From IMG/VR virus record IMGVR_UViG_3300002835_000154, positions 1 through 64,000 of that record: DNA of 64,000 nt, one strand, 5' to 3'. The stretch comes from a virus. Below are positions 4,473 to 33,953 of the stretch, piece by piece. The position numbers and the translations under genes are program-made. The notes beneath the pieces were generated by a model, which did not search any database, was not told the DNA's origin, and saw only the letters and a list, made by a program, of their open reading frames with translations. Each line of letters begins with the position of its first letter. Position 1 is the first letter of the stretch.

Positions 4473-6371
4473 ATGAGTAATATATACTATCTAATTCACA
4501 GTAGAAGTTTTGGCGATACATTGGCGTCAACACCAACATTGCGTTACCTATCACAATCACACAACCAAAAAATTAATATTGTTACACATAAAAAACATAT
4601 TTTTAAAAATAATCAATATGTTAATAATTGTCTAAGTTTTGACGAATTTAATGATTTGGGTATGTCCAATATTATCAAATATGAATCATTCACTTACGCT
4701 GGAAGACAAGACAATAATGGTATTGAAAAAAAGTTTTCACATATTGATACAAGACAACTCCACGCAATGGATTTAGGTTTTCAATTAATGTCACATCAAA
4801 TGGAATATGATTATACTCCAGACTATGTTGAATTACCATACGATTTACCTGAAAAGTATGTTGTTTGTCATATCACCCAAAATTGGGCGAATAGGACTTG
4901 GGACACCAAAAATTGGCAAAGATTAATTGATTGGTTGTCCGATAATAAAATCTTTACGATTTTAATTGGTCAGGACCACTCTGAAAAACTTCATGATTCA
5001 ATTAGTGTGGACCCTTTAATTAAAGCTTGCCCTAAATTAGATAATCTTTATGGTTTAGATTTAACTAACATAATAGAGTTAGAAGAAATGTACCAAGTGA
5101 TTAAAGGTTCATCGGTTATTGTTACTATGGATACTGGACCACTTCACATTGCAGGTTGTACTGACACACATATCTTACAACTTGGAAGTGCAACTCACCC
5201 ATTATTAAGAATACCTTACCGAAACAATACCCAAAATTATAAATATGATTTTGTTGGTGGTACTTGTAATATATTTTGTAATAGTGATTTGAAATATAAT
5301 GTTAAAGAGTGGGGTCATATAAATGCGGTTGCACCACTTACTGACTGTTCTGAAAATAAACCAACATTTGAATGTCATCCACATGTGGATAAAGTTATTA
5401 GTAAATTGAAAGAAATAATTCAATTCCAAGAAGAAAATAAATATTTAGAGTTCTTTGAACTACTACCTGATACCGATGAAGATAAAATTAATTTTAATTT
5501 CAAAAAAACAACAGATGATGTTGTTAGTATTGTAGTTAAAGATGTTCATACGGGGTTAATTAGAGATAGATTTACCAATCGATGCGAACGATTATCTGAA
5601 GGGAATTATTGGTGGGCACCAATGCCTGGAAAAGTAAAAAATCTTGGAGACATCGATTTGTATTTTTATTTGAATGATGAATTCCAAGGTAAACAAAGAT
5701 TGTATTATCCTGGTGGAATGGATTTAATCGTTAATGACAAAAAATATACATTAGATTATTTAGACGGATACGATTACCCAACATTTTGGGAAATATTTGT
5801 AAATGGTGATTACGAAAAAGAACCATCATGTGTTATAGAAAAAGGTGATGTTGTTTTGGATATCGGAGCAAATAAAGGATTTTTTACTCTAAATGCATTA
5901 CAGAAAGGTGCATCTAAAGTTTATAGTGTTGAACCTGTTAAACATTCGTATGAGCAGATAAAAAAATTATTAAATGATTTTCCAAATGTTGAACCAATAA
6001 ATAATGCGATTGGTGAAACTAATGGAACTATAAGTATGTTTGTTGACTCGGACGCTTCGGCAACCAATTGTGTTACAACATATGGCGATATGTTTGGTAG
6101 AGAATCAAACAAAGTTGACGTAGAATCAATTAATATCAATACTCTAATTGAACAAATTGACTCAAAAATTAACTACATGAAAGTTGATTGTGAGGGTTCT
6201 GAGTTTGAGTTATTTAAAACAATAACAGAACAAAATCTAAAAAATATCGATAAGTTAGTAATTGAAACTCATGGTGATGAGATTGATGCTTTTGTACATA
6301 AAACACTAACCAATAATAATTTCAGAGTTCATAAACACAATAATATACTATATGCAATTAACGAAAACTAA
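4473..6371 (+). CDS. Fusion of a GT9 heptosyltransferase-like domain and an FkbM methyltransferase
   Basis: The 632-residue protein has two enzymes in one chain. Residues 1-310 are GT9-like: an N-terminal SFGDTLASTPTLRYL loop, VVCHITQNWANRTWDTKNW, and TMDTGPLHIAGCTD, the GT9 nucleotide-sugar site. Four cysteines (C265, C269, C292, C301) end the domain and resemble the metal site of autotransporter heptosyltransferases. Residues about 400-632 are FkbM-type: VVLDIGANKGFFTLNA (motif I), YSVEPVKHSYEQ, and NYMKVDCEGSEFELF. The domain order suggests transfer of a sugar and methylation of it or of a neighbour. The same two domains occur as separate adjacent genes at 7526-9242. Donor and acceptor are not known. 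Confidence 0.8.
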   Translation: MSNIYYLIHSRSFGDTLASTPTLRYLSQSHNQKINIVTHKKHIFKNNQYVNNCLSFDEFNDLGMSNIIKYESFTYAGRQDNNGIEKKFSHIDTRQLHAMDLGFQLMSHQMEYDYTPDYVELPYDLPEKYVVCHITQNWANRTWDTKNWQRLIDWLSDNKIFTILIGQDHSEKLHDSISVDPLIKACPKLDNLYGLDLTNIIELEEMYQVIKGSSVIVTMDTGPLHIAGCTDTHILQLGSATHPLLRIPYRNNTQNYKYDFVGGTCNIFCNSDLKYNVKEWGHINAVAPLTDCSENKPTFECHPHVDKVISKLKEIIQFQEENKYLEFFELLPDTDEDKINFNFKKTTDDVVSIVVKDVHTGLIRDRFTNRCERLSEGNYWWAPMPGKVKNLGDIDLYFYLNDEFQGKQRLYYPGGMDLIVNDKKYTLDYLDGYDYPTFWEIFVNGDYEKEPSCVIEKGDVVLDIGANKGFFTLNALQKGASKVYSVEPVKHSYEQIKKLLNDFPNVEPINNAIGETNGTISMFVDSDASATNCVTTYGDMFGRESNKVDVESININTLIEQIDSKINYMKVDCEGSEFELFKTITEQNLKNIDKLVIETHGDEIDAFVHKTLTNNNFRVHKHNNILYAINEN

Positions 6372-6372
6372 T

Positions 6373-7524
6373 ATGTTAAAATTTGGTGTGTATACAACTT
6401 TCTATAATTGTGAAAGGTTTATTGATAAAATATTCACATCAATAGAATTATTAAATTATGATAATTTTGAATGGCACATAACTGATGATTATTCAACCGA
6501 TAATACTAAAAGTTTGGTATTTGAAAGATTAGACAAAAGTCCATTGAAACATAAAATAATTTATTATGAACAATCGGAAAAAAAACAAATGTATTGGAAA
6601 CCAAATGAGTTTTTTGATGAAACATTTGATTGGATTATTTTGGTTGATGCTGACGATGATTTTGATAAAAATTTCCTAAATGTATACAATACTTTTTTAT
6701 ACGGAAGAGATGATGTCTCTTTGGTATCATCTGACTTCTTTAAAATTAATGAAAGTGATAATTCAAGACACTCAATATCATATGTAATAAATAATGATAT
6801 TATATCAAATAAAATTAACCAATATCATCCATCTTGTGATTACTTGAATAACATTAGTTATAGTTGTTTTGGTCATTTAAGAGGATTTAAAAATATAATA
6901 CCATCATTCGATGTTGATGACATGTTGGCGTGTGCTGAAGATAGTTATCACATATTTTGGTCCAATTCATTTGGAAAGTATTTACACATCCCAAGACCAT
7001 TATATACATGGTATTTAAGGGATGACTCCGAATCTCATCGTAAAACGATACCCGCAAATTTTAATGATAATTTTAATATTGCCTTAAATAAACTTAATCA
7101 AAGTGATGGTGGTGTTGATAAAATGTTTAATGACATTTATATTGAAACATCAACTTTGGGATCATACGACTTCAAAAACTTAAAGGGTCGAAAGGTATCA
7201 TTATGGACAAGAGTATTATCCCAAGGTCAAAAAGAAACATTACAAAGTTTGTACTATGACATTGATTTGGTATTTAATGACGATACCGCCGAAATACATC
7301 TTTATACTTTAAACTTCTATAATGAAAGTGGTTTAGATAATTTGTTACAAAAAACAAAAGGTAAAAAGTTAATGTTTTATTATCAAAACCAAAATTATCA
7401 TGAAACTAATGAACAAAAAGAAAACGAATTAGATTTTCAACTTAACAAATATCTTAATACTATAGGTAAACATACTGGTTATAGTTGGTGGACATATATT
7501 AGACATTTTATTATAAAAAATTAA
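6373..7524 (+). CDS. Family 2 (GT-A) glycosyltransferase
   Basis: A GT2-like inverting glycosyltransferase with N-terminal FGVYTTFYNCERFIDKIF, WHITDDYSTDNTKSLV (nucleotide-binding Asp) and the metal-binding DxD region IILVDADDDFDKNFL. The DDDSESHRKT stretch near residue 220 fits the acceptor side. The C-terminal 120 residues are an extension without a recognised fold. An in-frame ATG exists upstream at 6352 inside the previous gene, but ATG 6373, one base after that gene's stop, fits the coupled layout better. Acceptor and donor are unknown. Confidence 0.75.
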   Translation: MLKFGVYTTFYNCERFIDKIFTSIELLNYDNFEWHITDDYSTDNTKSLVFERLDKSPLKHKIIYYEQSEKKQMYWKPNEFFDETFDWIILVDADDDFDKNFLNVYNTFLYGRDDVSLVSSDFFKINESDNSRHSISYVINNDIISNKINQYHPSCDYLNNISYSCFGHLRGFKNIIPSFDVDDMLACAEDSYHIFWSNSFGKYLHIPRPLYTWYLRDDSESHRKTIPANFNDNFNIALNKLNQSDGGVDKMFNDIYIETSTLGSYDFKNLKGRKVSLWTRVLSQGQKETLQSLYYDIDLVFNDDTAEIHLYTLNFYNESGLDNLLQKTKGKKLMFYYQNQNYHETNEQKENELDFQLNKYLNTIGKHTGYSWWTYIRHFIIKN

Positions 7525-7525
7525 T

Positions 7526-8476
7526 ATGAATAAAAAAGTTTTTTTGAATTTATCAGAGTGTTATGCAATAGGTGATACTTTATGCTCAACACCTACGGTT
7601 CGTAAATTGTGTGAAAGTTATGGTAGAAAGATTTATGTTGTAACTCACTTTCCTGAATTATTTGATAATAACCCTTATGTTGAAAAAACATATCATCCAA
7701 ATACAATTAACGTAGGTCATATAAGAGAACAATTTATTGTTCACACAACTTTTGATATTTTAGGTAATAAGACCGAAAGGGGTGTTGAATATAAACATGC
7801 CCGTATTGATATTCGTCAATACCATGCAATTAGTTTGGGGTTCATGTTATCACCTGATGAAATGGAATGTAATTACTATCCTAAAGACTACGAACCCATT
7901 GAAAACTTACCTGAAAAATATGTTTTAATTCACCCTGTTCAAACTTGGCCAAATAGAACTTGGTCATCTTCCAATTGGATGAAACTAACAAAAAAATTAA
8001 ATGATTTAGGTATTTCAGTAGTATCAATTGGAAAAGATAGTTCTGAGAAAGGGTTCTTTAATGTTAATAAACCAACATTTAATTTTGATATTGAAAACGG
8101 ATTAAACTTAATGAATAAGACAAGTTTATCACAAGCTTGGCATTTGATTAATAAGTCATTATGTTTTGTTACTATGGACTCAGGATTATTACATTTGGCA
8201 GGAACATCAGACGCTGAAATTGTTATGTTGGGTAGTGCAATTAAACCTGAGTTTAGAAAACCTTATAGACAAGGTTCACAAGATTATAAACTATCTTACG
8301 TTTTAGGTGGATGTGATTTACATTGTTGTTCCGATATGAAACATAGTATTAAAGAGTGGGGTAATATTCAAGGTGTACCTCCACTAATTAATTGCTTAGA
8401 AAATAAAAAAACATTTGAATGTCACCCTGGTGTTGATTCAGTTGTAAGATTAATTGAAAATATTAAAAATGGATAA
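7526..8476 (+). CDS. GT9 heptosyltransferase-like glycosyltransferase, stand-alone paralogue
   Basis: The 316-residue protein aligns by eye with the N-terminal half of the 4473-6371 fusion: GDTLCSTPTVRKL, VLIHPVQTWPNRTWSSSNW and TMDSGLLHLAGTSDAEIVML. It carries the same C-terminal cysteine set (C263, C267/C268, C290, C299) and the shared endings KEWG and TFECHP. GT9 enzymes use ADP- or GDP-heptose-type donors; the four-Cys signature is closer to autotransporter heptosyltransferases than to LPS WaaC/WaaF. It overlaps the following FkbM gene by 8 bp, so the split pair mirrors the upstream fusion. Confidence 0.75.
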   Translation: MNKKVFLNLSECYAIGDTLCSTPTVRKLCESYGRKIYVVTHFPELFDNNPYVEKTYHPNTINVGHIREQFIVHTTFDILGNKTERGVEYKHARIDIRQYHAISLGFMLSPDEMECNYYPKDYEPIENLPEKYVLIHPVQTWPNRTWSSSNWMKLTKKLNDLGISVVSIGKDSSEKGFFNVNKPTFNFDIENGLNLMNKTSLSQAWHLINKSLCFVTMDSGLLHLAGTSDAEIVMLGSAIKPEFRKPYRQGSQDYKLSYVLGGCDLHCCSDMKHSIKEWGNIQGVPPLINCLENKKTFECHPGVDSVVRLIENIKNG

Positions 8477-9242
8477 TAAATTATTTTGGACTTTAAGTCC
8501 TAATGGTGAAGAAGTTTTAAGAAACTTAGAACAAGAGAATAAAAATTTTTCACGGGAAGCCTATTTAAGGGGTGAATTTGACGCTAATAATTACCAATGG
8601 TTTGAAATGTTTCACCATTATGTCTTTGACGATAATGGGTGTGATTATGAGAGACTTGGTTGTTATATAAAAGAAGGTGATGTTGTATTAGACTTGGGTG
8701 CTAATATTGGTGTATTTGCACACAGAGCAGAAATTCGTGGAGCGTCAAAAGTAATTTCATTTGAACCAGTTACACCAACTTTTAACTGTTTAATAAAGAA
8801 CAAAGGTCCTAAAACTTTAGTTTATAAAAACGCTGTTGGTGGTAAACATGGTTTTACAACATTTAGGATTCACACAGATTTTACACACATTGGTGGTGGA
8901 ACAAGTGAAAACCAAGATTTAATGTTAAACCAAAGACCTATTATTCACTCAGAAAGAGTCATTATTATTGGTATTAATGAAATATTTGAAAACATGGAAA
9001 CCAAAATTGACTTTATGAAAATAGATATTGAAGGTGGTGAAGTTGATGTATTAACATCAATTACTGATGAAAATTTATCATCATTAAGGTGTTTATCCGC
9101 AGAATTTCATAAAACATACGAAGAATTTGATGAGTTTCAATCTAACTTTACAGATAGAATGACTTTATTAGGATTTAAGCATTTTACGGCTTATTATGGT
9201 GATGGTAATCTAAGAACTTTAACTTTTTGGAAAGAATCATGA
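8469..9242 (+). CDS. FkbM-family SAM-dependent methyltransferase
   Basis: FkbM-type O-methyltransferase with VVLDLGANIGVFAHRAEIRG (motif I), ISFEPVTPTFNCL, a conserved KNAVGG segment, and DFMKIDIEGGEVDVL. These correspond one by one to the C-terminal half of the 4473-6371 protein. A TTG at 8454 is in frame, but ATG 8469, overlapping the GT9 stop by 8 bp, is the natural start. FkbM enzymes methylate sugar hydroxyls in many polysaccharide clusters. The target here is inferred to be the sugar placed by the neighbouring GT9. Confidence 0.75.
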   Translation: MDNKLFWTLSPNGEEVLRNLEQENKNFSREAYLRGEFDANNYQWFEMFHHYVFDDNGCDYERLGCYIKEGDVVLDLGANIGVFAHRAEIRGASKVISFEPVTPTFNCLIKNKGPKTLVYKNAVGGKHGFTTFRIHTDFTHIGGGTSENQDLMLNQRPIIHSERVIIIGINEIFENMETKIDFMKIDIEGGEVDVLTSITDENLSSLRCLSAEFHKTYEEFDEFQSNFTDRMTLLGFKHFTAYYGDGNLRTLTFWKES

Positions 9243-9934
9243 AAATATGTATTTTAACATCATATACCGACCACATTAGATGGGATAATTACGGTAAATG
9301 TGATTATGGTGATTTCGCATCATTAAATCATCACGAATATTCAAATAAAAATGGGTATTCGTATGTTAAAGAAATTGTAAAAAATGAAGACTATATTAAT
9401 TGGCACCCAACATGGATTAAAATTGATGTTTTAAAAAAATATCTTCCATTATACGATTATATTGTATGGATAGATGCCGATGCGGTATTTGTTAATCAGG
9501 ACATCACAATTGAAAATTTAATTTACGGTAATGTTGATTTGGTTATCCCTAAACTTGAGTTAGACCGAGTTAGTGGTAATATGTGGACACATACAACAAC
9601 AGGATTTATGATATGGAAAAATAGTGAGTGGTCAAAAAATATATTAAATTTATTATGGGACGAACCAAAACAATTTAGGTTTGAATTTTTTCATGAACAA
9701 TCTAGACTTGATGAATTGTTGTATGATAATTTTACTTTTAATGGTGGTGAAAATATTTTAAATAAAGAGATTACAGATATTGAAACACCAGTTATATTAA
9801 ACAACATAAAAATATTACCATATTCTTATCATAGATGTTGGGATGATGGTGAAATAAAATATGTTTACCATGCTGGTGGTAATACAGGAACTAAATTAGA
9901 AAGAATAAAAAGAATATTAAAAAAAGATGAATAA
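9239..9934 (+). CDS. GMA12/MNN10-like galactosyl/mannosyl transferase
   Basis: The 231-residue protein shows the architecture of the GT34 (GMA12/MNN10) family: N-terminal KICILTSYTD, a WIKIDVLKKYLPLYDYIVW segment, the metal-binding motif WIDADAVFVN, and the TTGFMIWKNSEWS region that holds the acceptor loop. The in-frame upstream TTG (9227) is less likely than ATG 9239, which overlaps the previous stop as ATGA. It probably transfers hexose from a nucleotide sugar. The linkage is unknown. Confidence 0.65.
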   Translation: MKICILTSYTDHIRWDNYGKCDYGDFASLNHHEYSNKNGYSYVKEIVKNEDYINWHPTWIKIDVLKKYLPLYDYIVWIDADAVFVNQDITIENLIYGNVDLVIPKLELDRVSGNMWTHTTTGFMIWKNSEWSKNILNLLWDEPKQFRFEFFHEQSRLDELLYDNFTFNGGENILNKEITDIETPVILNNIKILPYSYHRCWDDGEIKYVYHAGGNTGTKLERIKRILKKDE

Positions 9935-10910
9935 AGAATTAATTTTAATACCATCATATTGTCCTGATAAAAAAAGAAAAGAAATTTTTTTTGCATTTTT
10001 AAAACAATTGCAAAATTTTAGAGACAAATACGATATTTTAGTTGCATCACACACACCATTAGATACCCACTTTTTTGACTACTTTGATTATTTTTATTAT
10101 GATAAAAATAATGTTATTCTAACCAATATTGAATATAGACAAAATGGATTTTTTTGTCCCTTTGATAACTATGTTATATGGAGTAGTTATATTGGAAGTG
10201 GTAATACCATTAAAGCGATTTTAGATTTAATAATACCATCAATATCAATCGCTAAAGACTTAAAATACCGTAAAATACATTATATTGAGTATGATACTAG
10301 CATAACTGATGATAAAGAAATAATTGAAAATTCAAAATTGTTAGATGAATACGATTACGTAATATACAACACGGATTATACACACAAACTTGTTGGTGCA
10401 TTTTTTTCTTTTAAAACAAACTCAATAATTGATGAATGGAAAGAATGTAATGACGAGATTTTTAAAAAATCTTATTTTGGTGTTTACCCAAAAGTTCCTG
10501 AAAATATATTATATAATCAAATTAGTAATCAGAGAAAATATATTGAAAAAAATTATAATGATTTAAAATTAAATGGTATTGAAACTAATATTGTTCATGA
10601 AAATCGTTCTAATTGGAATGTACCTTTTTTTGACCCAAAAGATAAAAATTTAAAATTTGTAAGTCATAATAACACTAACTCAGAATATGATATTAAAGTA
10701 ATTGTTAATAATAAATTACATAATCTAGGAATAATAAAACCAAGGAATTGGAAAATAATAAGTTTATTGGAAAATTTTTATGACGTAGAATATGTTACCG
10801 TATTAAAAAACAATGAAAAAATTTTACATCTAGAGTTCAATGACTTAGATTTTAAAAATAAATTTGAGTATTATAACTCCGCATTAAATAGTAGTAGTAT
10901 TCATATATGA
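9927..10910 (+). CDS. Unrecognised glycan-cassette protein, possibly a GT-A-like transferase
   Basis: This 327-residue soluble protein starts with LILIPSYCPDKKRKEIF and DILVASHTPLDTHFFDYFDY, the beginning expected of a nucleotide-sugar transferase fold. The segment KYRKIHYIEYDTSITDD could stand for a DxD-like site. I do not recognise the family and no other motif is decisive. It overlaps both neighbours (ATGAATAA upstream and ATGA downstream), so it is an integral cassette gene. Function as a glycosyltransferase is inferred from context. Confidence 0.5.
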   Translation: MNKELILIPSYCPDKKRKEIFFAFLKQLQNFRDKYDILVASHTPLDTHFFDYFDYFYYDKNNVILTNIEYRQNGFFCPFDNYVIWSSYIGSGNTIKAILDLIIPSISIAKDLKYRKIHYIEYDTSITDDKEIIENSKLLDEYDYVIYNTDYTHKLVGAFFSFKTNSIIDEWKECNDEIFKKSYFGVYPKVPENILYNQISNQRKYIEKNYNDLKLNGIETNIVHENRSNWNVPFFDPKDKNLKFVSHNNTNSEYDIKVIVNNKLHNLGIIKPRNWKIISLLENFYDVEYVTVLKNNEKILHLEFNDLDFKNKFEYYNSALNSSSIHI

Positions 10911-12580
10911 AAACACTTTTAATATTAACACCACATATGTCAACAGGAGGATGTCCTCAAGTTGTTGCAAAAAAAGTAGAATTACTTAAAGATTTTTATA
11001 ATGTAATTGTTGTGGAATGGGAAATGATTGCATGGTCATATGTAGTTCAAAGAAATAGGGTTATTAACATGATTGGTAATAAGTTTATTTCTTTATCCGA
11101 AAATAAAGAATATGACTTATTCAATATAATTGAAGACCATAAGGTTGACTGTATTATGATTGAGGAATTTTCTGAAACATTTATCCCAACACATATTATG
11201 AAACGTCTTTATTCAAAAGACAGAGAGTATAAAATATTTGAGACAACTCATAGTTCTCACACTCAACCAAGTTGGAAAAAATTCTTACCTGATAAATTTA
11301 TTTTTGTTTCCCCCCACTCATTAGATGTGTTTAAAGATATGGGAGTTCCTATGGACTTAATTGAATATCCCATAGATAAAAAAACACCTAACAAGGAATA
11401 TAATCAAAACCTATTAGGTTTGGACCCTGAATATAAACATGTCCTGAATATCGGTCTGTTTACATGGGGAAAAAATCAAGGTTATGCATTTGAAGTTGCT
11501 AGATTATTACAAGATTATAAAATTAAATTCCATTTTGTTGGTAACCAAGCAAGTAATTTTGTTGATTATTGGGGACCAATAATGGAAACAAAACCAGATA
11601 ATTGCGTTGTATGGGGTGAGAGAAACGATGTTGATACATTTATACAAGCATCTGATGTACATCTATTTAGTTCAATAATGGAATTAAACCCATTATCAAT
11701 TAAAGAATCTTTGGAATATGAAAAACCGACAATGATTTTCAATTTATCAACATATAAGGGTAAGTACGATACTGAAAAAAATATTAATTTTTTAACAGGA
11801 GATGTTAACACAGACAGTCATAATTTGTTAAAAATTTTAGGGATTCAACCTAAAGAACTTAAACAACCAAAAATACGTGTTGTACATTTATTATTAGACC
11901 CAAACGAACCTGAAGACTTACCATTAGATAGTTGGCAATCAAATATACAAAGACAGGAATACTCAATAAAATGTTGGGAAAATATGAAACATAAGTTTTT
12001 TGAATATATTCCTAGATATACTAAAGTTAATAGGACTGAATTACCTTATGATAATTGTATGAACCCTGAAATAATTAATCCATCTAAAGAATTAAAAAAT
12101 GAACCACCAGTTTTAACGTATGGTCATTACGGAGCATATAGGGCCCATAGTCAAGGTATTTTAGAAAATTTTACCGATGATATTGATGCGTTGATTATTG
12201 CCGAAGGAGATTCATTTACTAATCTATCACCACAAGATTTTTATGATAAAGTTATTGAATCTTATAATTTATCACAATCATTAAACACTAAAATAGTTAG
12301 TTATGCTGGTCCATATTATATTTCAGGTATTGATTGGTGGGGTATGAGTAATGAAGTTGAGGGTTGGATAAGGGCTCCTCATTTTTTAATGGGTACGACA
12401 TATATGATTATGAAATCGGAAAGAGAGGATATTTTAAATTGTGTTCATAATGTTGCGTGGCATTCTCCTGATTTTTGGTTGGCGTGGATTTGTCATAATA
12501 GATTTGATGTTTTAGTTAGTAAAGAAGCGATAGTTTTTCAAAAAGAAGGGTATTCTGTATTGGACTATTTAGAAAAATAA
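10907..12580 (+). CDS. Two-domain protein: GT4-like glycosyltransferase plus a C-terminal GT25-like domain
   Basis: The 557-residue protein has a GT-B N-terminal start (LLILTPHMSTGGCPQVVAKK) and a GT4-type second Rossmann domain: HVLNIGLFTWGKNQGYAFEV, HFVGNQA, DVHLFSSIMELNPLSIKES (the E-x7-E-like donor site). From about residue 322 a separate segment follows; PPVLTYGHYGAYRAHSQGIL and DALIIAEGDSF resemble the start-and-acidic-motif layout of family-25 LPS transferases. The second assignment is tentative. A double transferase adding two successive sugars would fit. It overlaps the previous gene by ATGA. Confidence 0.65.
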   Translation: MKTLLILTPHMSTGGCPQVVAKKVELLKDFYNVIVVEWEMIAWSYVVQRNRVINMIGNKFISLSENKEYDLFNIIEDHKVDCIMIEEFSETFIPTHIMKRLYSKDREYKIFETTHSSHTQPSWKKFLPDKFIFVSPHSLDVFKDMGVPMDLIEYPIDKKTPNKEYNQNLLGLDPEYKHVLNIGLFTWGKNQGYAFEVARLLQDYKIKFHFVGNQASNFVDYWGPIMETKPDNCVVWGERNDVDTFIQASDVHLFSSIMELNPLSIKESLEYEKPTMIFNLSTYKGKYDTEKNINFLTGDVNTDSHNLLKILGIQPKELKQPKIRVVHLLLDPNEPEDLPLDSWQSNIQRQEYSIKCWENMKHKFFEYIPRYTKVNRTELPYDNCMNPEIINPSKELKNEPPVLTYGHYGAYRAHSQGILENFTDDIDALIIAEGDSFTNLSPQDFYDKVIESYNLSQSLNTKIVSYAGPYYISGIDWWGMSNEVEGWIRAPHFLMGTTYMIMKSEREDILNCVHNVAWHSPDFWLAWICHNRFDVLVSKEAIVFQKEGYSVLDYLEK

Positions 12581-12596
12581 TTTATTATTATTGGAT

Positions 12597-13250
12597 ATGG
12601 AAGAAGTTTTTAAAAATATTGACGAACAAAGACTATGGAATAATGAATCCATGTGGTCAGATGGCGGTCATGAATGGTCCAAATCATTTGGTACTACAGA
12701 AAATTTATGGAATAACCATATTTTTGATGATATAAAGGAATTTAGAGGCAAAAAGATTTTAGAAATTGCACCAGGTTATGGACGAATTACACAATTTTTA
12801 TCTATTTTAGCGTCAGAACTATTAGTTGTTGATTTAAATGAAAATTGTATTAAAAAAACTAAAGAAAAACTTGGTCATCATGTTTTAGGTTATTTTGTAA
12901 ATAACGGAAATGATTTACCACATATTAGAGATAATTCTCAAGATTTAGTTTTTTCGTTTGACTCTTTTGTTCATATTCATAAAAATGTTATTGACGATTA
13001 CATTGGTGAAATATACCGAATACTAAAACCTGGTGGTAAATCATACATACATCATTCTTGGTTAATGGGTGGTCAAGATAATTCTTTTTTAAATTTTGCA
13101 GGTAGATCTTCAATGACACCTGACGTTTTTAAAAGTTTAGTTGAAAAACACAACATGAAAATTGTGGAACAAAAAACGATAAACTTCGCACCTCTTGGCG
13201 CTTGGGATGGTACTGATTCAATAACTATTTTTGAAAAACCAATTATATAA
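12597..13250 (+). CDS. Class I SAM-dependent methyltransferase (Methyltransf_11-like)
   Basis: Motif I reads KKILEIAPGYGRITQFLS, the acidic strand-2 residue is in LLVVDLNENCIKKT, and DLVFSFDSFVHIHKNVIDDY followed by RILKPGGKSYIHH is the classical Methyltransf_11 pattern. It is 217 residues long from ATG 12597; an in-frame TTG at 12591 is less likely. It lies 16 bp after the double glycosyltransferase and 3 bp before the aminotransferase gene. The substrate is probably a sugar or amino sugar in the same pathway. Confidence 0.75.
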   Translation: MEEVFKNIDEQRLWNNESMWSDGGHEWSKSFGTTENLWNNHIFDDIKEFRGKKILEIAPGYGRITQFLSILASELLVVDLNENCIKKTKEKLGHHVLGYFVNNGNDLPHIRDNSQDLVFSFDSFVHIHKNVIDDYIGEIYRILKPGGKSYIHHSWLMGGQDNSFLNFAGRSSMTPDVFKSLVEKHNMKIVEQKTINFAPLGAWDGTDSITIFEKPII

Positions 13251-13253
13251 ATT

Positions 13254-13898
13254 ATGTCAAATGGTGTTTATAAGATAACTGACGATTTTGAAAAAGAACT
13301 TGGTAGATATACTGGAGCTCCGTATGTCATTACATTAGATAACATGAGTAACGCATTATTTTTGGCGTTATATTATGAAAAAAATATAACAAAAACCATT
13401 ACGGGCGACACAATTACAATACCCAATAGAACTTACCCATCTGTACCATGTGAAATAATTCATTCAGGTTTAAAAGTTGACTTTGACTTAGTTGATGGTA
13501 GAACTATCAAGGGAGCCTATCAACTCAAGGGTAGTAATGTTTGGGATTCAGCATTAAGATTTACTGCAGATATGTACATTCCAAAAACACATATGTGTGT
13601 TTCATTTACAGGTCCATATAAACATTTTAAATTAAGTAAAGGTGGTGCTATTTTAACAGATAGTCATGACGCTTATCTATGGTTTAAGAGAGCAAGATAT
13701 AGTGGAAGACGTGAGTGTTCATATCATGATGATAACCTTGATATGTTAGGTTGGAATTTTTATATGATGCCAGAACTTGCTACTCGTGGTATGTTATTAA
13801 TGAATCAATTTTATAATATTGATGGTACCAAAAAACGTAATGAAGATTTGGAATTACCATATCCTGATTTATCTAAATTTAAAATTTATAGAAAATGA
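13254..13898 (+). CDS. Mini DegT/DnrJ/EryC1-type sugar aminotransferase lacking the C-terminal domain
   Basis: The order of motifs follows PLP-dependent nucleotide-sugar aminotransferases: FEKELGRYTGAPYVI with a NALFLAL segment, GDTITIPNRTYPSVPCEIIHSG, an Asp in VWDSALRF (D98, expected to touch the PLP nitrogen), and SFTGPYKHFKLSKGGAILTD where K123 is the likely Schiff-base lysine. LGWNFYMMPELATRGML matches the family's substrate loop. The protein is 214 residues versus about 370 for typical members, so the small C-terminal domain is absent, not merely shortened by a visible frameshift. With the NeuD-like gene at 15250 it suggests a 4-amino-4-deoxy sugar pathway. Activity of such a short form is uncertain. 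Confidence 0.65.
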   Translation: MSNGVYKITDDFEKELGRYTGAPYVITLDNMSNALFLALYYEKNITKTITGDTITIPNRTYPSVPCEIIHSGLKVDFDLVDGRTIKGAYQLKGSNVWDSALRFTADMYIPKTHMCVSFTGPYKHFKLSKGGAILTDSHDAYLWFKRARYSGRRECSYHDDNLDMLGWNFYMMPELATRGMLLMNQFYNIDGTKKRNEDLELPYPDLSKFKIYRK

Positions 13899-15253
13899 GA
13901 CTAGATTATATTGAAGTTGGTACTTCCGATTTTGACACTCTTGTTGAGACAAATAATGGTGTAGGAATTAGTGTCGAACCGTTATCCTTATATTTAAACA
14001 AGTTACCAAATAAAGAAAACAATATTAAGGTCCATGCTGCTATTAGCGATGAAGACGGGTATTGCATGGTGTTTTATATACACCCTGATGACATATTAAC
14101 TTATAATTTACCTGAATGGTTAAAGGGTTGTAATTCAATTAAAACCCCTCACCCGTCAGCGGTTAAAGTTTTAACAGAAAATGGACTAAACCACATTTAC
14201 AGGAGTGAAAAAATTAAAATTATTACATGGGATACACTTATTCGTGATTATAGTATTAGTTATGTTGACTATTTGAAGTTGGATACCGAAGGTCATGATA
14301 CTGTTATTTTAAATTCAATTTTAAATTCAACAACAAATATTTTACCTAAAAAAATACTATTTGAAACAAACGTTTTAATTAATCCTGAAGACATTAAAAA
14401 AATACTAATACGATTAAAAAATAGAGGGTACGAAATTATTGAGAATTATGGCGATAATATATTGGTTGAGTATAGGAGTAATTTACCAACTAAGATAATT
14501 TTTTCGTCTAACGATTCTAGATATCTTAAATATTGGTCAGATAATTCTAAAATGTGTTCTGAAATATTACAAATTACACCAATTTTAATTCACATAACCA
14601 ATGAGGATAGTAATTTTATGTGGGATGAATTTGGTCTTATTAAAAAAATTAAATGTGATAATAACACATCATTAGCAGCACAAGTTAGTCGATTATATTC
14701 GGGAGTTTTTTTCCCTAATGAAAAAATCATAATAAGTGATATTGACATGTTTTTTTTTGATAAAAATTACCTTAAAAAAAGTTTAATTAATAGTGAATTT
14801 TATGACGTAACAATTATTGGTTCCGATGGTTACGATAAAAATAGACCTGAATGTTTGGAATTTTTACACTCGTGTAAAGAAAGATTTCCAATGTGTTTTA
14901 TAGTTTGTTATGGTAATATACTTAATAATATAATGAACATTAACACCAACACAATATTTCAAAATTTTTTAGATAATAATAATTTTAATTTTGGGTTTAA
15001 TTCCGATGAAATTGTATTCACAAATAATTTATTAAAAACTGATTACAAAATAAATAGGGTAAATCGTGAATATGTAAGTAACTTTTATCTTAAGGAACGT
15101 ATTGAAAAATATATGTTTACCGAGAATTCTACTTTTAGAATTAATCTTAATTATCTAAATAATTTGAATGGATACTCTGAGTTTCATTGTCCTGACTATG
15201 ACGAACATGTTGACACCATAAAACATCTATTATCATTAATTTACAATAAATGA
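13895..15253 (+). CDS. Fusion of an FkbM-like methyltransferase domain and a DxD-containing transferase-like domain
   Basis: Residues 1-195 resemble the later part of FkbM enzymes: YIEVGTSDFDTLVE, GISVEPLSLYLNKL, and VDYLKLDTEGHDTVIL. Residues about 200-452 form a different domain with TKIIFSSNDSRYLKYW and IISDIDMFFFDKNYL, a DxD-type metal site typical of GT-A fold transferases, plus NFGFNSDEIVFTNNLL. It overlaps both neighbours by ATGA. A bifunctional methyltransferase-glycosyltransferase is the simplest reading. The second domain is not assignable to a GT family by eye. Confidence 0.6.
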   Translation: MRLDYIEVGTSDFDTLVETNNGVGISVEPLSLYLNKLPNKENNIKVHAAISDEDGYCMVFYIHPDDILTYNLPEWLKGCNSIKTPHPSAVKVLTENGLNHIYRSEKIKIITWDTLIRDYSISYVDYLKLDTEGHDTVILNSILNSTTNILPKKILFETNVLINPEDIKKILIRLKNRGYEIIENYGDNILVEYRSNLPTKIIFSSNDSRYLKYWSDNSKMCSEILQITPILIHITNEDSNFMWDEFGLIKKIKCDNNTSLAAQVSRLYSGVFFPNEKIIISDIDMFFFDKNYLKKSLINSEFYDVTIIGSDGYDKNRPECLEFLHSCKERFPMCFIVCYGNILNNIMNINTNTIFQNFLDNNNFNFGFNSDEIVFTNNLLKTDYKINRVNREYVSNFYLKERIEKYMFTENSTFRINLNYLNNLNGYSEFHCPDYDEHVDTIKHLLSLIYNK

Positions 15254-15849
15254 AAAAGGGGATTATAGGTGCTGGAGGTTTTGGTAGAGAAGTCTATTGG
15301 GGTTTATCTTTAATGGAAAGAATTAATACAGTTTTTTTTGTTGATGACAAATATTGGGATGGTAGTAATGAATTAATATTACCATTATCTAAATTTGACC
15401 CAACCGAGTATAGTATTGTTGTTGCAATTGGAGACCCTAAAGATAGATTTGATATTGTACAAAGATTACCTAAAGAAACCAAGTATTTTACACATATTCA
15501 TGATTCTTGTCAAATACTTGGTGATGATGTTATTATTGGTGAAGGTAGTATTATATGTGCAGGAACAATTATAACTACAAACGTTAAATTGGGTAAACAT
15601 GTGCATTTAAATTTACAAACCACAATTGGTCATGATTGTGAAATCGGTAATTACTTTACAACCGCACCTGGAGCCAAAATATCGGGTAATTGTAAAATAT
15701 ATGATTTGGTTTATGTTGGTACCAACGCATCAATTAAAGAAAAATTAACAATACATAGTTTAACAACTATTGGGTCAAATGCAACGGTAGTTAAAAATAT
15801 TGAAGAGTCGGGAACATACGTTGGCGTTCCGGTAAAAAAAATAAAATAA
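15250..15849 (+). CDS. NeuD/PglD-family sugar O/N-acetyltransferase (left-handed beta helix)
   Basis: The 199-residue protein has an N-terminal Rossmann-like nucleotide-sugar binding part (KKGIIGAGGFGREVYWGL) and then hexapeptide repeats (GDDVIIGEGSIICAGTIITT, IGHDCEIGNYFTTAPGAKIS), ending in AYVGVPVKKIK-like text, the standard NeuD/PglD layout. H162-type catalytic His is provided by the IGHDC segment. PglD enzymes acetylate UDP-4-amino sugars made by PglE, a DegT aminotransferase, which is the partner encoded two genes upstream. This pair predicts an N-acetylated 4-amino sugar such as a bacillosamine- or Qui4NAc-like residue; the exact sugar is not deducible. Confidence 0.8.
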   Translation: MKKGIIGAGGFGREVYWGLSLMERINTVFFVDDKYWDGSNELILPLSKFDPTEYSIVVAIGDPKDRFDIVQRLPKETKYFTHIHDSCQILGDDVIIGEGSIICAGTIITTNVKLGKHVHLNLQTTIGHDCEIGNYFTTAPGAKISGNCKIYDLVYVGTNASIKEKLTIHSLTTIGSNATVVKNIEESGTYVGVPVKKIK

Positions 15850-15850
15850 T

Positions 15851-17023
15851 ATGAACACATTAAAAATTAATAGTATTGAATATGACATGTCATCACCGTC
15901 AGGTTTAGAGTTTAGACATAGATACATATCATCTTTTGGTGATGAAATACCTCAATCAGTTGATGTGAATTGGCATCACGTAAATGGATTTTATTTAGAA
16001 ATTAAATCAGATTCTGAAGATTTATTCACTATTGAAATTATTGACAATTCAAACACTGTTGTATATAAAACAACTTTAAAAAGTGGTATGTATTCTAAAT
16101 TATCACGTCAATATTTTAATGGTATTAAATATAAAATATATCACAAAGAAAGGTTAATAAAAGAAGAAGATATTAATTTTAATAATAAAAAAGTGTTTAT
16201 ATCTTTTGATTCGTCATCATTAGGTGACACAATTTCTTGGTTACCATACTGTGAAGAGTTTAGAATAAAACACAATTGTGAAGTTGTGGTTTCAACATTT
16301 AAAAATTTCTTTTTTGAGAAATCATATCCAAATATTACATTTGTACAACCAGGAAGTGTTGTGAATAATATTCATGGCATGTTTAAAATAGGTTGGTTTT
16401 ATGATAATAATCTTGAACCTGAATACCCATCATCAATACCATTACAAAAAGCAATAACCAATATCTTAGGTTTAGATTTTAAAGAAATACAATCTAACGT
16501 GTATTTTGAACCAAAAGAAAGACCTTATAATGAAAAATATATTTGTATTGCAACAAACTCAACTGCGGGTTGTAAGTTGTGGAATAACCCTAATGGGTGG
16601 ACTGAACTTGTTAAATACCTTAAAGATTTAGGTTATAAGATTATTAATATCTCAAAAGATGGTGATAAGGTCGAAGGTGTTATTAATTTAGAAGATGATT
16701 CTATGTTAAATACAATGAATGTTATTCATCATAGTGAATTTGTTATAGGACTATCAAGTGGATTATCTTGGTTAAGTTGGGCATTAGAAAAACATGTTGT
16801 TATGATATCTAACTTTACTGAACCAAACCATGAATTCACTATTAATTGTACCCGTATTACTAACCCTAATGTATGTAATGGTTGTTGGAATAATCCAATG
16901 TTTAAATTCGATAAAGGTGATTGGAATTGGTGTCCAGAACATAAAAATACTGAAAGACAATTTGAATGTCACAAATCAATTACTCCTGAAATGGTAATAA
17001 ATAAAATAGAACATTTAATATAA
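15851..17023 (+). CDS. Autotransporter heptosyltransferase-like GT9 (BAHT/TibC-like) with N-terminal accessory domain
   Basis: This 390-residue protein has an N-terminal beta-rich domain (about 1-110) and a C-terminal GT9-like domain (FISFDSSSLGDTISWLPY, CIATNSTAGCKLWNNPNGW, FVIGLSSGLSWLSWALEKHV). It ends with C342-x2-C345, C361 and C373 in a CWNNP...WCPEHK...FECHKS context. This two-domain plan and four-cysteine iron site are hallmarks of bacterial autotransporter heptosyltransferases such as TibC and AAH, which O-heptosylate Ser residues of surface proteins. That makes a protein acceptor plausible. Family level confidence is good; donor sugar and target are inferred. Confidence 0.8.
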   Translation: MNTLKINSIEYDMSSPSGLEFRHRYISSFGDEIPQSVDVNWHHVNGFYLEIKSDSEDLFTIEIIDNSNTVVYKTTLKSGMYSKLSRQYFNGIKYKIYHKERLIKEEDINFNNKKVFISFDSSSLGDTISWLPYCEEFRIKHNCEVVVSTFKNFFFEKSYPNITFVQPGSVVNNIHGMFKIGWFYDNNLEPEYPSSIPLQKAITNILGLDFKEIQSNVYFEPKERPYNEKYICIATNSTAGCKLWNNPNGWTELVKYLKDLGYKIINISKDGDKVEGVINLEDDSMLNTMNVIHHSEFVIGLSSGLSWLSWALEKHVVMISNFTEPNHEFTINCTRITNPNVCNGCWNNPMFKFDKGDWNWCPEHKNTERQFECHKSITPEMVINKIEHLI

Positions 17024-17030
17024 TTTTTAA

Positions 17031-17918
17031 ATGAAAAAAATTTTAATTAGAATTGATACCCCAATAGGTGATACAATTGCAGCAACACCTTACGTTGAAA
17101 AATTTTCAATAGAAAATAATGATAAAAAAGTTCTGTTTGAAATTAATGATAATTTAATACCTTTATTATCACCAGTTTATCCAATTATTAATTTTGTTGG
17201 TAGACATCATAATGAAAAGTATGATGAAAAAATTGAATTTAGATATAATCACAATACCTCTGTACAGTCAGGATTTGCAAATCAATTAGGGTATGATAAT
17301 CCAAAATATATTAGACCTAAAATATTAAAACCGGAATCTAAAAAAACTATTAAAAATAAATATATTTCAATAGGTGTACATTCAACATCACAACTTAAAT
17401 ATTGGAATCACCCTGACGGCAAAAGAGTTCAGCCGTTATCACCCTATTGGAATGAATTATGTGGTATTTTAAGAAAAAAAGGATACACACCTGTGGTTGT
17501 TGAACAAAATGAAATGTTTGGTGTCGATCCATTTAGAAATGGATTACCAAACAAATCAAACAAAAAATTTGGTCAATCATTTTTAGAATCAATGGAACTA
17601 ATATATCATTCAGAGTTTTACATTGGTTTAGCATCTGGCATGTCTTGGGTTGCACATGCGTTAGGTAAAAAAGTTGTAATGTTGTCAAACTTCACAGAAG
17701 ATTGGTGTGAGTTTGATTTATCATTAGATGACTACATTAGAATTACAAATAAAAACGTGTGTCACGGTTGTTGGAATAAGATAGGTATTGATTATACTTT
17801 TGATAATTATGATTGGTATTGGTGTCCTGAACACAAAGGAACTGAAAGACAATTTGAATGTCACAAATCAATAACACCAGATATGGTAATTGAACAAATC
17901 CAACATTTATTGTTGTAA
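17031..17918 (+). CDS. BAHT/TibC-like GT9 glycosyltransferase without the N-terminal domain
   Basis: The 295-residue protein aligns with the C-terminal part of its upstream neighbour: RIDTPIGDTIAATPYVEKF, ISIGVHSTSQLKYWNHPDG, FYIGLASGMSWVAHALGKKV and the cysteine set C244-x2-C247, C265, C277 with nearly identical surroundings (WCPEHKGTERQFECHKSITP). It therefore shares the proposed metal site and nucleotide-sugar site but lacks the accessory beta domain. It is the last cassette gene, 29 bp before the first adhesin. It may form a hetero-oligomer with the larger paralogue or extend the glycan. Confidence 0.75.
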   Translation: MKKILIRIDTPIGDTIAATPYVEKFSIENNDKKVLFEINDNLIPLLSPVYPIINFVGRHHNEKYDEKIEFRYNHNTSVQSGFANQLGYDNPKYIRPKILKPESKKTIKNKYISIGVHSTSQLKYWNHPDGKRVQPLSPYWNELCGILRKKGYTPVVVEQNEMFGVDPFRNGLPNKSNKKFGQSFLESMELIYHSEFYIGLASGMSWVAHALGKKVVMLSNFTEDWCEFDLSLDDYIRITNKNVCHGCWNKIGIDYTFDNYDWYWCPEHKGTERQFECHKSITPDMVIEQIQHLLL

Positions 17919-17947: not shown

Positions 17948-20518
17948 ATGCCAAACGCAATAAAATATAATGTAAGTGCTGAAACATTAGCTCTTAAGAA
18001 AGGAAACTTTTGGATTGGAACTGGTGATGTTGGAAAGGGTCCAACAAACGTAACAGGATACTACAATGGTATCACACCACCAACAGGAGGATTTACAATC
18101 TATCTTAATAAAGAGAGTGGTGGGCCATCAATATATACGGTGACAACTGAAGCTCAATTGGTGTCATTAACTAATACAATTGGAGCTCAAAGTTTTACAA
18201 CATCAAGTCAATGTTTAAATTGGTTTGCAACTCAAACCGATAAGATGGTTTTCAACATTGATTATCCTGCGATTGTGACAAATGGACTGGTATTAAATGT
18301 AGATGCAGGATTTACGCCTTCATATCCAACAACAGGAACAACTTGGTATGATGTGAGTTCGAGTGTTAATAATGGAACCTTGGTTAATGGGCCTACATTT
18401 AGTTCTGCTGGAGGTGGTAGTATTGTGTTTGATGGGGCGGATGATTATGGTGTGACCTCACCTACTAATTTTACTGCAAATAATGATTTTACTTATGAAA
18501 TATGGGTTAATAGTAACCAATATATTGAAAGTAGAGGTATATTGTCAAACAAAGGATATTGGCAAGCCGGAGGTCAAGGAGCAGCAATTGGTAACATTTC
18601 AAATCCTCAATACATATATGGTTATGTTACAACAAATACAGGACATTTTGATATAAGTTCAAATGTTGGACCTACTTATGGATGGACTAATGTTATAATG
18701 AGACGTTCTAATAATGACTTAAGATTTTTTATAAACGGAGCACAACAAGGGAGTACCCAAACTATCTCAGGAACAGTAACTGATGTAAGTGATAAATTTT
18801 GGTTAGGTTCATATAATAACGGTAATACACCTTGGTTAGGTAATATGGCAATAGCTCGAGTTTACAACCGAGCACTAACAGCAGCAGAAGTTCTCCAAAA
18901 CTACAACGCAATGAAAGACCGATTTGCGTTTATCTTTACCGTTAAAACTGACAATGCGGGAGTATCTACGTCTACTCAGTTCAGAATGCCGTTAATAAGT
19001 TCTACGGGATTATATTTCACGGTAAATTGGGGAGATGGTACACCCGTTGAAACCATAACCAATCACACTTTAGCAATTCATACTTATGCAACTGCGGGTA
19101 CATATACAATCAGTACAGTTGGAAATCTTAAAAATTGGTCGTTTAATGAAGGTGGTGATTTACTAAAAATGCTTAATGTATTTCAATGGGCAGGGTTGGA
19201 AATTAATGAATTTAGAGCATTTAGGGGATGCACTAATTTAACCGCAACAGCAACGGACGCACCTTTAATTACGACTACAACTTTGGACCGTTTCTTCCAA
19301 AATTGCCCCAATTTCAATGGAGCAATTGGCAATTGGAATGTGTCGGGTATAACAGATATGCAACATATGTTTGAAGGTGCAACGGCATTTAATCAACCAA
19401 TTGGAAGTTGGAATGTTTCTAATGTTACTACTATGCAAAATATGTTTAGCCTTTCAACCGCATTCAACCAAGATATTGGAAGTTGGAATGTTTCTAATGT
19501 TACTACTATGCAAAATATGTTTAGCAATTCAACCGCATTCAACCAAGATATTGGAAGTTGGAATGTTTCTAATGTTACAAATTTTGTTAACTTCATGATT
19601 GGTAAAACTGCCGCCAACTATTCCCCATCAAATCTCGATAGCCTATATAATGGATGGAGTCAGTTAACATTAAAACCAAATTTGACTATTGATTTTGGAA
19701 ATATATTATACACAACAGCAGGTCAAGCAGGTAAAGATATATTAGATAACTCACCTAATAACTGGACCATAACAGATGGTGGTGTCTTAAGAGCCGAAAC
19801 TTTTCAGTTTAGTGTTAAGACTGACAATGCGGGAGTATCTACGTCTACTCAGTTCAGAATGCCGTTAATAAGTTCTACGGGATTATATTTCACGGTAAAT
19901 TGGGGAGATGGTACACCCGTTGAAACCATAACCAATCACACTTTAGCAATTCATACTTATGCAACTGCGGGTACGTATACAATTAGTACGGTTGGCAATC
20001 TTAGAAATTGGGCGTTTAATGAAGGTGGTGATTTATTAAAGATGTTAAATGTATTCCAATGGGAAGGTTTGGAAATTAATGAATTTAGGGTATTTAGAGG
20101 ATGTACTAATTTAACTGCTACGGCAACTGATGCCCCTTTGATTGCTGCGGGTGCATTTTTTGACCGTTTCTTCCAAAATTGCCCCAATTTCAATGGAGCA
20201 ATTGGCAATTGGAATGTGTCGGGTATAACAGATATGCAACATATGTTTGAAGGTGCAACGGCATTTAATCAAGACATAGGAGGATGGAACGTATCAAATG
20301 TGACAAACTTTGGGAGTTTCATGGCGGGAAAAACCGCAGCCAACTATTCAGCCGCAAACCTTGATAGCATATACAATGGATGGAGTTCAAGAGCTGTTAA
20401 ACCAAATATAAATATAACTTTTGGTTCAATCAAATACAACTCAACCGCACAATCAGGTAAAAATATATTAACAGGTTCACCTAATAACTGGACCATAACA
20501 GATGGAGGACAATTATAA
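17948..20518 (+). CDS. Multidomain adhesin: shared N-module, LamG lectin domain, two PKD-like/BspA-repeat units
   Basis: The 856-residue protein has a phage-specific N-module (residues 1-115, MPNAIKYN...GNFWIGTGDVGKG), a LamG/concanavalin-like domain (about 112-322, with GSIVFDGADDYG and IARVYNRALTAAEVLQNYNA), then two copies of a PKD-like beta domain (GLYFTVNWGDGTPVETITNH) each followed by BspA-type DUF285 repeats (GNWNVSGITDMQHMFEGATA, 25-residue period). LamG domains bind glycans or proteins, and BspA repeats occur in surface adhesins. It is probably a virion surface adhesin that uses the N-module to attach to the particle. Internal duplications are nearly identical at DNA level, so the gene grew recently. 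Confidence 0.8.
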   Translation: MPNAIKYNVSAETLALKKGNFWIGTGDVGKGPTNVTGYYNGITPPTGGFTIYLNKESGGPSIYTVTTEAQLVSLTNTIGAQSFTTSSQCLNWFATQTDKMVFNIDYPAIVTNGLVLNVDAGFTPSYPTTGTTWYDVSSSVNNGTLVNGPTFSSAGGGSIVFDGADDYGVTSPTNFTANNDFTYEIWVNSNQYIESRGILSNKGYWQAGGQGAAIGNISNPQYIYGYVTTNTGHFDISSNVGPTYGWTNVIMRRSNNDLRFFINGAQQGSTQTISGTVTDVSDKFWLGSYNNGNTPWLGNMAIARVYNRALTAAEVLQNYNAMKDRFAFIFTVKTDNAGVSTSTQFRMPLISSTGLYFTVNWGDGTPVETITNHTLAIHTYATAGTYTISTVGNLKNWSFNEGGDLLKMLNVFQWAGLEINEFRAFRGCTNLTATATDAPLITTTTLDRFFQNCPNFNGAIGNWNVSGITDMQHMFEGATAFNQPIGSWNVSNVTTMQNMFSLSTAFNQDIGSWNVSNVTTMQNMFSNSTAFNQDIGSWNVSNVTNFVNFMIGKTAANYSPSNLDSLYNGWSQLTLKPNLTIDFGNILYTTAGQAGKDILDNSPNNWTITDGGVLRAETFQFSVKTDNAGVSTSTQFRMPLISSTGLYFTVNWGDGTPVETITNHTLAIHTYATAGTYTISTVGNLRNWAFNEGGDLLKMLNVFQWEGLEINEFRVFRGCTNLTATATDAPLIAAGAFFDRFFQNCPNFNGAIGNWNVSGITDMQHMFEGATAFNQDIGGWNVSNVTNFGSFMAGKTAANYSAANLDSIYNGWSSRAVKPNINITFGSIKYNSTAQSGKNILTGSPNNWTITDGGQL
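17999..18154 (+). repeat. 156-bp block shared with the second adhesin gene, copy 1
   Basis: By direct reading it is identical to 20956-21111, while the sequence on both sides has diverged. It encodes the core of the N-terminal attachment module. Confidence 0.9.
18947..19101 (+). repeat. 155-bp direct repeat, copy 1 (PKD-like domain)
   Basis: By direct reading it is identical to 19820-19974 inside the same adhesin gene. It encodes the start of a PKD-like domain. Confidence 0.9.
19286..19396 (+). repeat. 111-bp direct repeat, copy 1 (BspA-type repeats)
   Basis: Identical to 20162-20272. It begins GACCGTTTCTTCC and ends GGCATTTAATCAA, encoding the first BspA-like repeats of each unit. Copy 1 is followed by two further 75-bp repeats that are missing after copy 2. 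Confidence 0.9.
19820..19974 (+). repeat. 155-bp direct repeat, copy 2 (PKD-like domain)
   Basis: Identical to 18947-19101. The flanks have diverged (GTTAAG versus GTTAAA before it, GTATAC versus ATATAC after it). Confidence 0.9.
20162..20272 (+). repeat. 111-bp direct repeat, copy 2 (BspA-type repeats)
   Basis: Identical to 19286-19396, in the second PKD/BspA unit of the adhesin. Confidence 0.9.
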
Positions 20519-20529
20519 AATAGATAATT

Positions 20530-20895
20530 ATGCAAGAAATAAAATACCCAACAGATACAACTTATTTTATAGCATATACCAATAGTAGAGTATGTGCTTG
20601 GGGTTCAGTAAATCCCGACCAAGAGATGTCAAGCGGACAACCTAATCTTTATCAAACAACCGATGAAACTCAGTGGTTAACAGAACTACAAAACTTTTAT
20701 GTAGTTTGGGGTTATCAGTTCTATAATTTAGAAACTGCTGAGACATATAAAATTATGATAAATAATTATTATGATAGTGATGTTGCTGAAGTAAAGTATG
20801 CCGAATACAATAATCCCACCTTTTGGTACATAGAGGGTGACTTTACTGAAGCAACCGAAGATGAACCAGAATCATTCCAAGTTTATCCAAATTAA
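20530..20895 (+). CDS. Small adhesin-associated protein of unknown function
   Basis: The 121-residue acidic protein (MQEIKYPTDTTYFIAYTNSR...) is rich in Tyr and Trp and lacks signal peptide, membrane segment or catalytic motif. It sits between two adhesins sharing the same N-module. Small proteins in this setting are often fibre assembly chaperones or adaptors, as in T4 gp38-type genes, but nothing in the sequence proves that. Confidence 0.5.
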   Translation: MQEIKYPTDTTYFIAYTNSRVCAWGSVNPDQEMSSGQPNLYQTTDETQWLTELQNFYVVWGYQFYNLETAETYKIMINNYYDSDVAEVKYAEYNNPTFWYIEGDFTEATEDEPESFQVYPN

Positions 20896-20904
20896 TGGAT
20901 TATA

Positions 20905-33225: not shown

Positions 33226-33253
33226 TACTTTTGTCGTAATTATGATATTTATA
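33226..33253 (+). promoter_or_regulatory. TACTTTTG box and ATATTTATA element before the homing endonuclease
   Basis: TACTTTTG (33226-33233) matches the Bacteroidota -7 consensus TAnnTTTG, and ATATTTATA (33245-33253) lies 3 bp before ATG 33257. Both elements share this 50-bp gap; no TTG at the right upstream distance was found. Confidence 0.4.
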
Positions 33254-33256
33254 ATT

Positions 33257-33934: not shown

Positions 33935-33953
33935 AAAAGATATTAGAACAAAA

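Follow-up and report, generated by a model that had tools for sequence, protein, structure and literature searches.

What role might four glycosyltransferases of the GT9 family, all carrying a similar four-cysteine signature, play in a phage? The question is raised by positions 1 to 64,000 (the window) of IMG/VR virus record IMGVR_UViG_3300002835_000154, a freshwater phage record of 68,296 bases. Glycosyltransferases of environmental phages are usually explained as modifiers of DNA or of the host surface (e.g. PMC10202952, PMC12619734). Judged by its sequence and structural model, one of the four proteins, protein C, is a true relative of the bacterial autotransporter heptosyltransferases (BAHTs) in both family and fold. 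We lean, with moderate confidence, towards the view that C and its sister D are phage BAHT-lineage protein O-glycosyltransferases and that C glycosylates the phage's own Ser/Thr-Gly fibre within an O-glycosylation module. The genes central to this argument are the following:

1..2583, + strand: collagen-like (Gly-Ser/Thr-Ser)n fibre with a C-terminal Peptidase_S74 domain (PF13884, 6e-18), open at the record start
4473..6371, + strand: protein A, Cx3C-type GT9 (residues ~1-315, Cys 265/269/292/301) fused to an FkbM methyltransferase
7526..8476, + strand: protein B, Cx3C-type GT9 (Cys 263/267/290/299) without a beta domain
15851..17023, + strand: protein C, BAHT-family GT9 with an N-terminal beta domain, four Cys in TibC spacing and a shortened thumb
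17031..17918, + strand: protein D, sister BAHT lineage without a beta domain, with a thumb-length loop of other sequence

The four-cysteine signature

An earlier note, made from the sequence alone, had described the four proteins as paralogues ending in two closely spaced cysteines followed by two more, in a FECH context. All four open reading frames (ORFs) indeed carry the pattern at the positions that it gave, and each continues into FECH. The residues are C265-x3-C269-x22-C292-x8-C301 in A, C263-x3-C267-x22-C290-x8-C299 in B (with an additional C268), C342-x2-C345-x15-C361-x11-C373 in C and C244-x2-C247-x17-C265-x11-C277 in D. Composition shuffles put the chance of such a pattern at 0.4-2.9% per protein, but conservation is the stronger argument: the four Cys are invariant in the A/B-type alignment (36/36), in a 44-sequence C/D alignment and in 67 phage C/D-type sequences. 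The signature is real and does not have the appearance of a chance product. The division into Cx2C and Cx3C subtypes also holds, and corresponds to two distinct GT9 families, C/D and A/B. 'Four paralogues', on the other hand, is a loose description, since A and B are 42% identical, A is only ~21% identical to C/D, and the two pairs form separate clades. Nor is the motif terminal in A, where it occupies residues 265-301 of 632 and is followed by the FkbM methyltransferase domain.

Phage-encoded relatives of BAHTs

The BAHT family is defined by the NCBIfam model TIGR04414, with a curated cut-off of 200 bits. Protein C exceeds it with 289.9 bits (whole-protein hidden Markov model (HMM) score) and matches TibC in PDB with E = 8e-56. 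Its structural model (pLDDT, the predicted local distance difference test, 91.6) has N-terminal beta-barrel strands at 37-119, and the comparison with TibC suggested by the earlier note gives a Foldseek E of 2e-36 and a template modelling (TM) score of 0.78. The spacing of its cysteines, x2/x15/x11, is identical to that of the TibC finger (C339/342/358/370; PMC4358343). Moreover, the catalytic base D110 and the donor residues T226, K230 and W305 (TibC numbering) are retained in C, and D110, K230, W305 and the four Cys are retained in 66-67 of the 67 phage C/D-type sequences. Two features depart from TibC. The adenine-contacting R286 is Thr in protein C and is lost in 64 of the 67 phage sequences, mostly to Thr or Val. 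Furthermore, the thumb of C has 18 residues, compared with 28 in TibC, and lacks the F265/V266 tip; most phage BAHTs likewise have a tipless thumb of 17-20 residues. In TibC, this beta-hairpin links dimers hand in hand through its F265/V266 tip and is needed for the dodecameric ring (PMC4358343). With the tip missing, dimers of protein C are unlikely to assemble into a 12-mer ring as in TibC and, by analogy, a dimer is predicted to be the oligomer of phage BAHTs.

Protein D falls just under the TIGR04414 cut-off with 189.2 bits and matches TibC in PDB with E = 5e-30. As the earlier note had proposed, the beta domain is kept only by the first Cx2C protein: D begins at the glycosyltransferase (GT) fold. 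In a GT9 tree with just three bacterial BAHTs (TibC residues 50-380 taken from an alignment and two plasmid proteins), these group with C and D in one clade (support 100/100), within which D represents a separate 100/100 lineage, and C/D are not nested within WaaC/F/Q. The suspected kinship with BAHTs therefore stands for C/D, supported by TIGR04414, the TibC match and the clade, and fails for A/B, which have their own clade and a different Cys spacing. L069, a relative from the D clade, seems on reading its sequence to have a beta domain. An obligate pairing of C and D was considered and rejected, as G070 has a D-sized match alone. A Gluconobacter plasmid BAHT (L162:5785-7068) reads QFER in place of QFEC, with Arg at the position of the fourth Cys of the finger.

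Association with Ser/Thr-Gly fibres

The fibre gene at the beginning of the window is easily overlooked: its true frame, 1-2583, is absent from the plain ORF list, and the 662-aa ORF listed at 11-1999 is a wrong frame of it. It has at least 220 Gly-x-y triplets, the first 220 of which include 144 GSS and 72 GTS. The use of TCA, TCT, AGT and AGC as Ser codons implies that the repeat is maintained as protein. Of 73 non-redundant loci with a BAHT or A/B-type gene, 41 have collagen-like runs, nearly all of them Ser/Thr-rich, within ~8 kb. For an unbiased test, viral contigs of at least 30 kb were chosen by DNA repeat pattern only; two of the 38 Gly-Ser/Thr-Ser contigs (L197 and L207) were already known from BAHT searches. 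A TIGR04414 match is present in 22 of the 38 (21 over the cut-off), compared with 0/30 Gly-Pro-x collagen contigs (Fisher p 1e-7) and 1/31 Gly-x-Gln/Glu collagen contigs matched by GC content (p 6e-7). When only contigs of 30-100 kb are considered, BAHTs occur in 14/29 versus 0/29 (p 1.5e-5). The BAHT-positive contigs range from 0.28 to 0.57 in GC content and from 30 to 548 kb in length, and their BAHT architectures are diverse (299-1527 aa). In contigs longer than 60 kb, the distance between fibre and BAHT, worked out by hand, is below 15 kb in 10 of 16 cases, 4.3 being expected (Kolmogorov-Smirnov p 0.007).

Proteins A and B

In the GT9 tree, A and B make up a clade by themselves (100/100); they have no beta domain, and their Cys are spaced differently from those of BAHTs. 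Against TIGR04414, B scores 33.2 bits and A has no match. The TIGR models of lipopolysaccharide (LPS) heptosyltransferases I/II/III do not claim them either, as all four proteins A-D are far under the cut-offs (best 35-37 versus 134-185 bits). Nevertheless, A/B retain the catalytic Asp and the TMDSGxLHLAG donor-loop motif, and hhalign aligns the A/B and C/D families over the whole length, with their E-x-K-x-T-FECH ends matched. The model of B has a pLDDT of 88.6 (62-79 in the Cys region), and its best PDB match is TibC (1.2e-11), with WaaF a close second (7e-11). A joint A/B and BAHT grouping is weakly supported (88/28).

A viral scan with protein A alone gave no confirmed relative. Among 84,980 genomes, scanned with the B-type alignment by means of short peptide patterns that could miss distant relatives, a single contig (L153) was found. 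It is 6.4 kb long, of low coverage and assigned to a Lokiarchaeota bin; one of its ORFs combines a B-type GT9 domain with a GT4 and the beginning of a BAHT. L153 is probably misbinned phage DNA; it additionally encodes a NodU-like carbamoyltransferase. A/B are likely a phage-confined four-Cys GT9 clade, whose Cys cluster may be finger-like. Related phages encode further GT9-like ('E') proteins of ~297 aa without the Cys motif (L077:11949-12839 and L028:6817-7707).

The gene cluster and its relatives

The glycosyltransferase, methyltransferase and sugar-enzyme genes are clustered at ~3.9-17.9 kb of the window, with the S74-ended fibre upstream and three LamG proteins downstream. Besides the genes listed above, the region comprises:

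6352..7524, + strand: GT2 glycosyltransferase (PF00535, 4e-12)
8454..9242, + strand: FkbM-type methyltransferase (PF05050, 4e-13)
9227..9934, + strand: GT34-like glycosyltransferase (PF05637, 3e-8)
10907..12580, + strand: GT4-like glycosyltransferase
12591..13250, + strand: S-adenosylmethionine-dependent methyltransferase (PF08241, 9e-14)
13254..13898, + strand: N-terminal part (214 aa) of a DegT/DnrJ sugar aminotransferase (PF01041, 3e-10, residues 7-79 only)
15250..15849, + strand: PglD-like hexapeptide acetyltransferase (PF17836, 6e-11; PF00132, 6e-11)
17948-20518, 20905-22392 and 22392-24149, + strand: three lectin-like (Laminin_G_3, PF13385) fibre/adhesin proteins with a common N-terminus

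Elsewhere in the window are genes for a primase, an exonuclease, SbcCD-like proteins, a sigma factor and a DNA methyltransferase; as far as homology goes, this gene content and the relatives point to a tailed phage. At 33242-34556, a homing endonuclease-like gene overlaps a RuvC-like resolvase gene.

Among 49 relative records drawn from the BAHT and B searches, TIGR04414 is over the cut-off in 48 and a GT4 like that at 10907-12580 is present in 46, frequently fused to the BAHT in open frames of ~900-1500 aa; other cluster genes vary. A counterpart of the window's GT4 (41% identity) and a BAHT lie ~4 kb apart in L164, an uncultured phage of 735 kb (LR756501). Of 17 records found by protein B, 16 have a BAHT over the cut-off and the remaining one runs off the record end. 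An A/B-type GT9 is found in 33 of the 49 records, yet in only 5 of the 22 independently chosen BAHT-positive contigs, and a universal pairing of A/B with BAHTs was rejected on these grounds.

Proposed function and alternative explanations

We propose that, while the virion is being assembled or earlier, protein C, perhaps with D, would attach the first sugar to Ser/Thr of the fibre, taking it from a nucleotide donor. The products of the GT4, GT2, A/B and other GT genes would then lengthen the sugar, and the FkbM methyltransferases would cap it by methylation. The four Cys may form a TibC-like single-metal finger stabilising a back-to-back dimer. A and B, with a similar fold and likely a similar finger, would belong to this pathway too, where the sugar placed by C may be their substrate. 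That many large aquatic phages possess such a ring-less BAHT O-glycosylation pathway for Ser/Thr-Gly fibres, with phage-only A/B and possibly a non-heptose donor, is a tentative proposal that we place a little short of probable.

Several points weigh against glycosylation of the fibre by C. The acceptors of TibC are beta-helix autotransporter passengers, whose fold is unlike the collagen helix. Over all 22 positive contigs the closeness of fibre and BAHT is not significant (p 0.13), and in only 1/22 do the two share a stored stretch of sequence. The association itself may partly reflect phage lineage, the main confounder; the Gly-x-Gln/Glu controls were matched by GC content. By analogy with TibC, which loses activity once its N-terminal 80-95 residues are removed (PMC4358343), protein D alone may be inactive. 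Finally, the loss of Arg286 in nearly all phage sequences suggests that ADP-heptose may not be the donor, and gmhA and rfaE-II have no match in the window's record.

That phages generally encode the synthesis of ADP-heptose was rejected, since a GmhA-like gene is found in one 343-kb phage record only (239 and 188 bits, just under the cut-offs), together with an rfaE-II-like enzyme. These two genes of the 343-kb record (L161:1465-2061 and L155:1483-1896 (-)), for a sedoheptulose-7-phosphate isomerase of GmhA type and a nucleotidyltransferase resembling RfaE domain II, represent a possible heptose supply. Weak rfaE-II-like matches occur in 7 of 42 records, none over the cut-off. In Microcystis phage Mel-JY01, an isolated phage that has both the fibre and the BAHT genes, a heptose-related role of the 'cytidylyltransferase' is unsupported.

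Could the GT9 cluster instead change the surface of the infected host, whether its LPS, its capsule or one of its proteins, for instance to prevent superinfection, with the fibre as a bystander? GT9 enzymes are classically LPS heptosyltransferases, A/B weakly match TIGR02193/TIGR02195, and serotype-converting phage glycosyltransferases are known. We nevertheless regard this as unlikely: all four proteins are far under every LPS heptosyltransferase cut-off, C matches a protein O-glycosyltransferase family that tracks Ser/Thr-rich fibres, and a late change of the host surface would presumably be of little gain to a lytic phage. It also seems improbable that BAHT and fibre co-occur merely through a shared group of large aquatic phages, the acceptor being another virion protein. 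The Laminin_G_3 proteins at 17948..24149 offer such alternative acceptors, and this explanation would fit the position of these three LamG/DUF285 proteins directly after D, the 16/38 fibre contigs without a BAHT and the insignificant proximity over all positive contigs. It accords poorly, however, with the wide range of GC content and size among these contigs, with their diverse BAHT architectures and with the rarity of homologues of the window's LamG proteins, found at 6 of 72 relative loci.

A narrower doubt concerns A/B, which might be ordinary heptosyltransferases that happen to have four Cys, unrelated to the TibC iron finger. In the catalytic core they are closer to heptosyltransferase I/II models than to TIGR04414, only part of their differently spaced Cys are cleanly paired by hhalign, and the joint grouping with BAHTs is weak. 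We consider this doubtful, if deserving of some weight, given the invariance of the four Cys, the TibC match of B and the C-terminal end common to A/B and BAHTs. If fibre glycosylation by the BAHT lineage is true, virion fibre glycosylation would be common among large aquatic phages, with a bearing on receptor binding, and would be the viral equivalent of the hyperglycosylation of adhesins in bacteria; BAHT protein glycosylation would be separable from both autotransporters and the 12-mer ring. The tracking of Ser/Thr-Gly fibres by BAHTs provides a concrete acceptor and enzyme pair for testing.

Comparison with known systems

Protein C resembles TibC/AAH (TIGR04414; PDB 4RAP, 4RB4) in its whole-length HMM match, beta domain, GT-B fold, D110/K230/W305 and Cys spacing. 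Unlike TibC/AAH, it is phage-encoded, its thumb is 10 residues shorter and Thr takes the place of Arg286; phage relatives are often fused to GT4 and FkbM, and no autotransporter adjoins the phage BAHT, the partners being Ser/Thr-Gly fibres instead. With WaaC, WaaF and WaaQ (GT9), the window's proteins have the fold in common, and A/B the catalytic Asp and TMDSGxLHLAG, whereas the four-Cys C-terminus, the separate clades and scores far under the family cut-offs set them apart. Our literature search of open-licence papers found no earlier description of phage-encoded BAHTs. What is new here is that phage BAHTs mostly lack the ring-forming thumb tip and have a non-autotransporter genomic partner, alongside a phage-confined four-Cys GT9 clade.

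Glycans on phage structural proteins have a precedent in mycobacteriophages, in which the capsid and tail-tube C-termini are glycosylated (Freeman et al. 2023, cited in PMC12619734, in a passage that does not mention BAHTs). In Clostridium difficile, SgtA glycosylates Thr in the collagen-like BclA3 encoded beside it (PMC7157674), so that a glycosyltransferase adjoining a collagen-like protein can indeed glycosylate it. SgtA adds GlcNAc to the GPT repeats of a spore protein (PMC7157674), and the comparison with the phage fibre is a functional one only, with no homology claimed.

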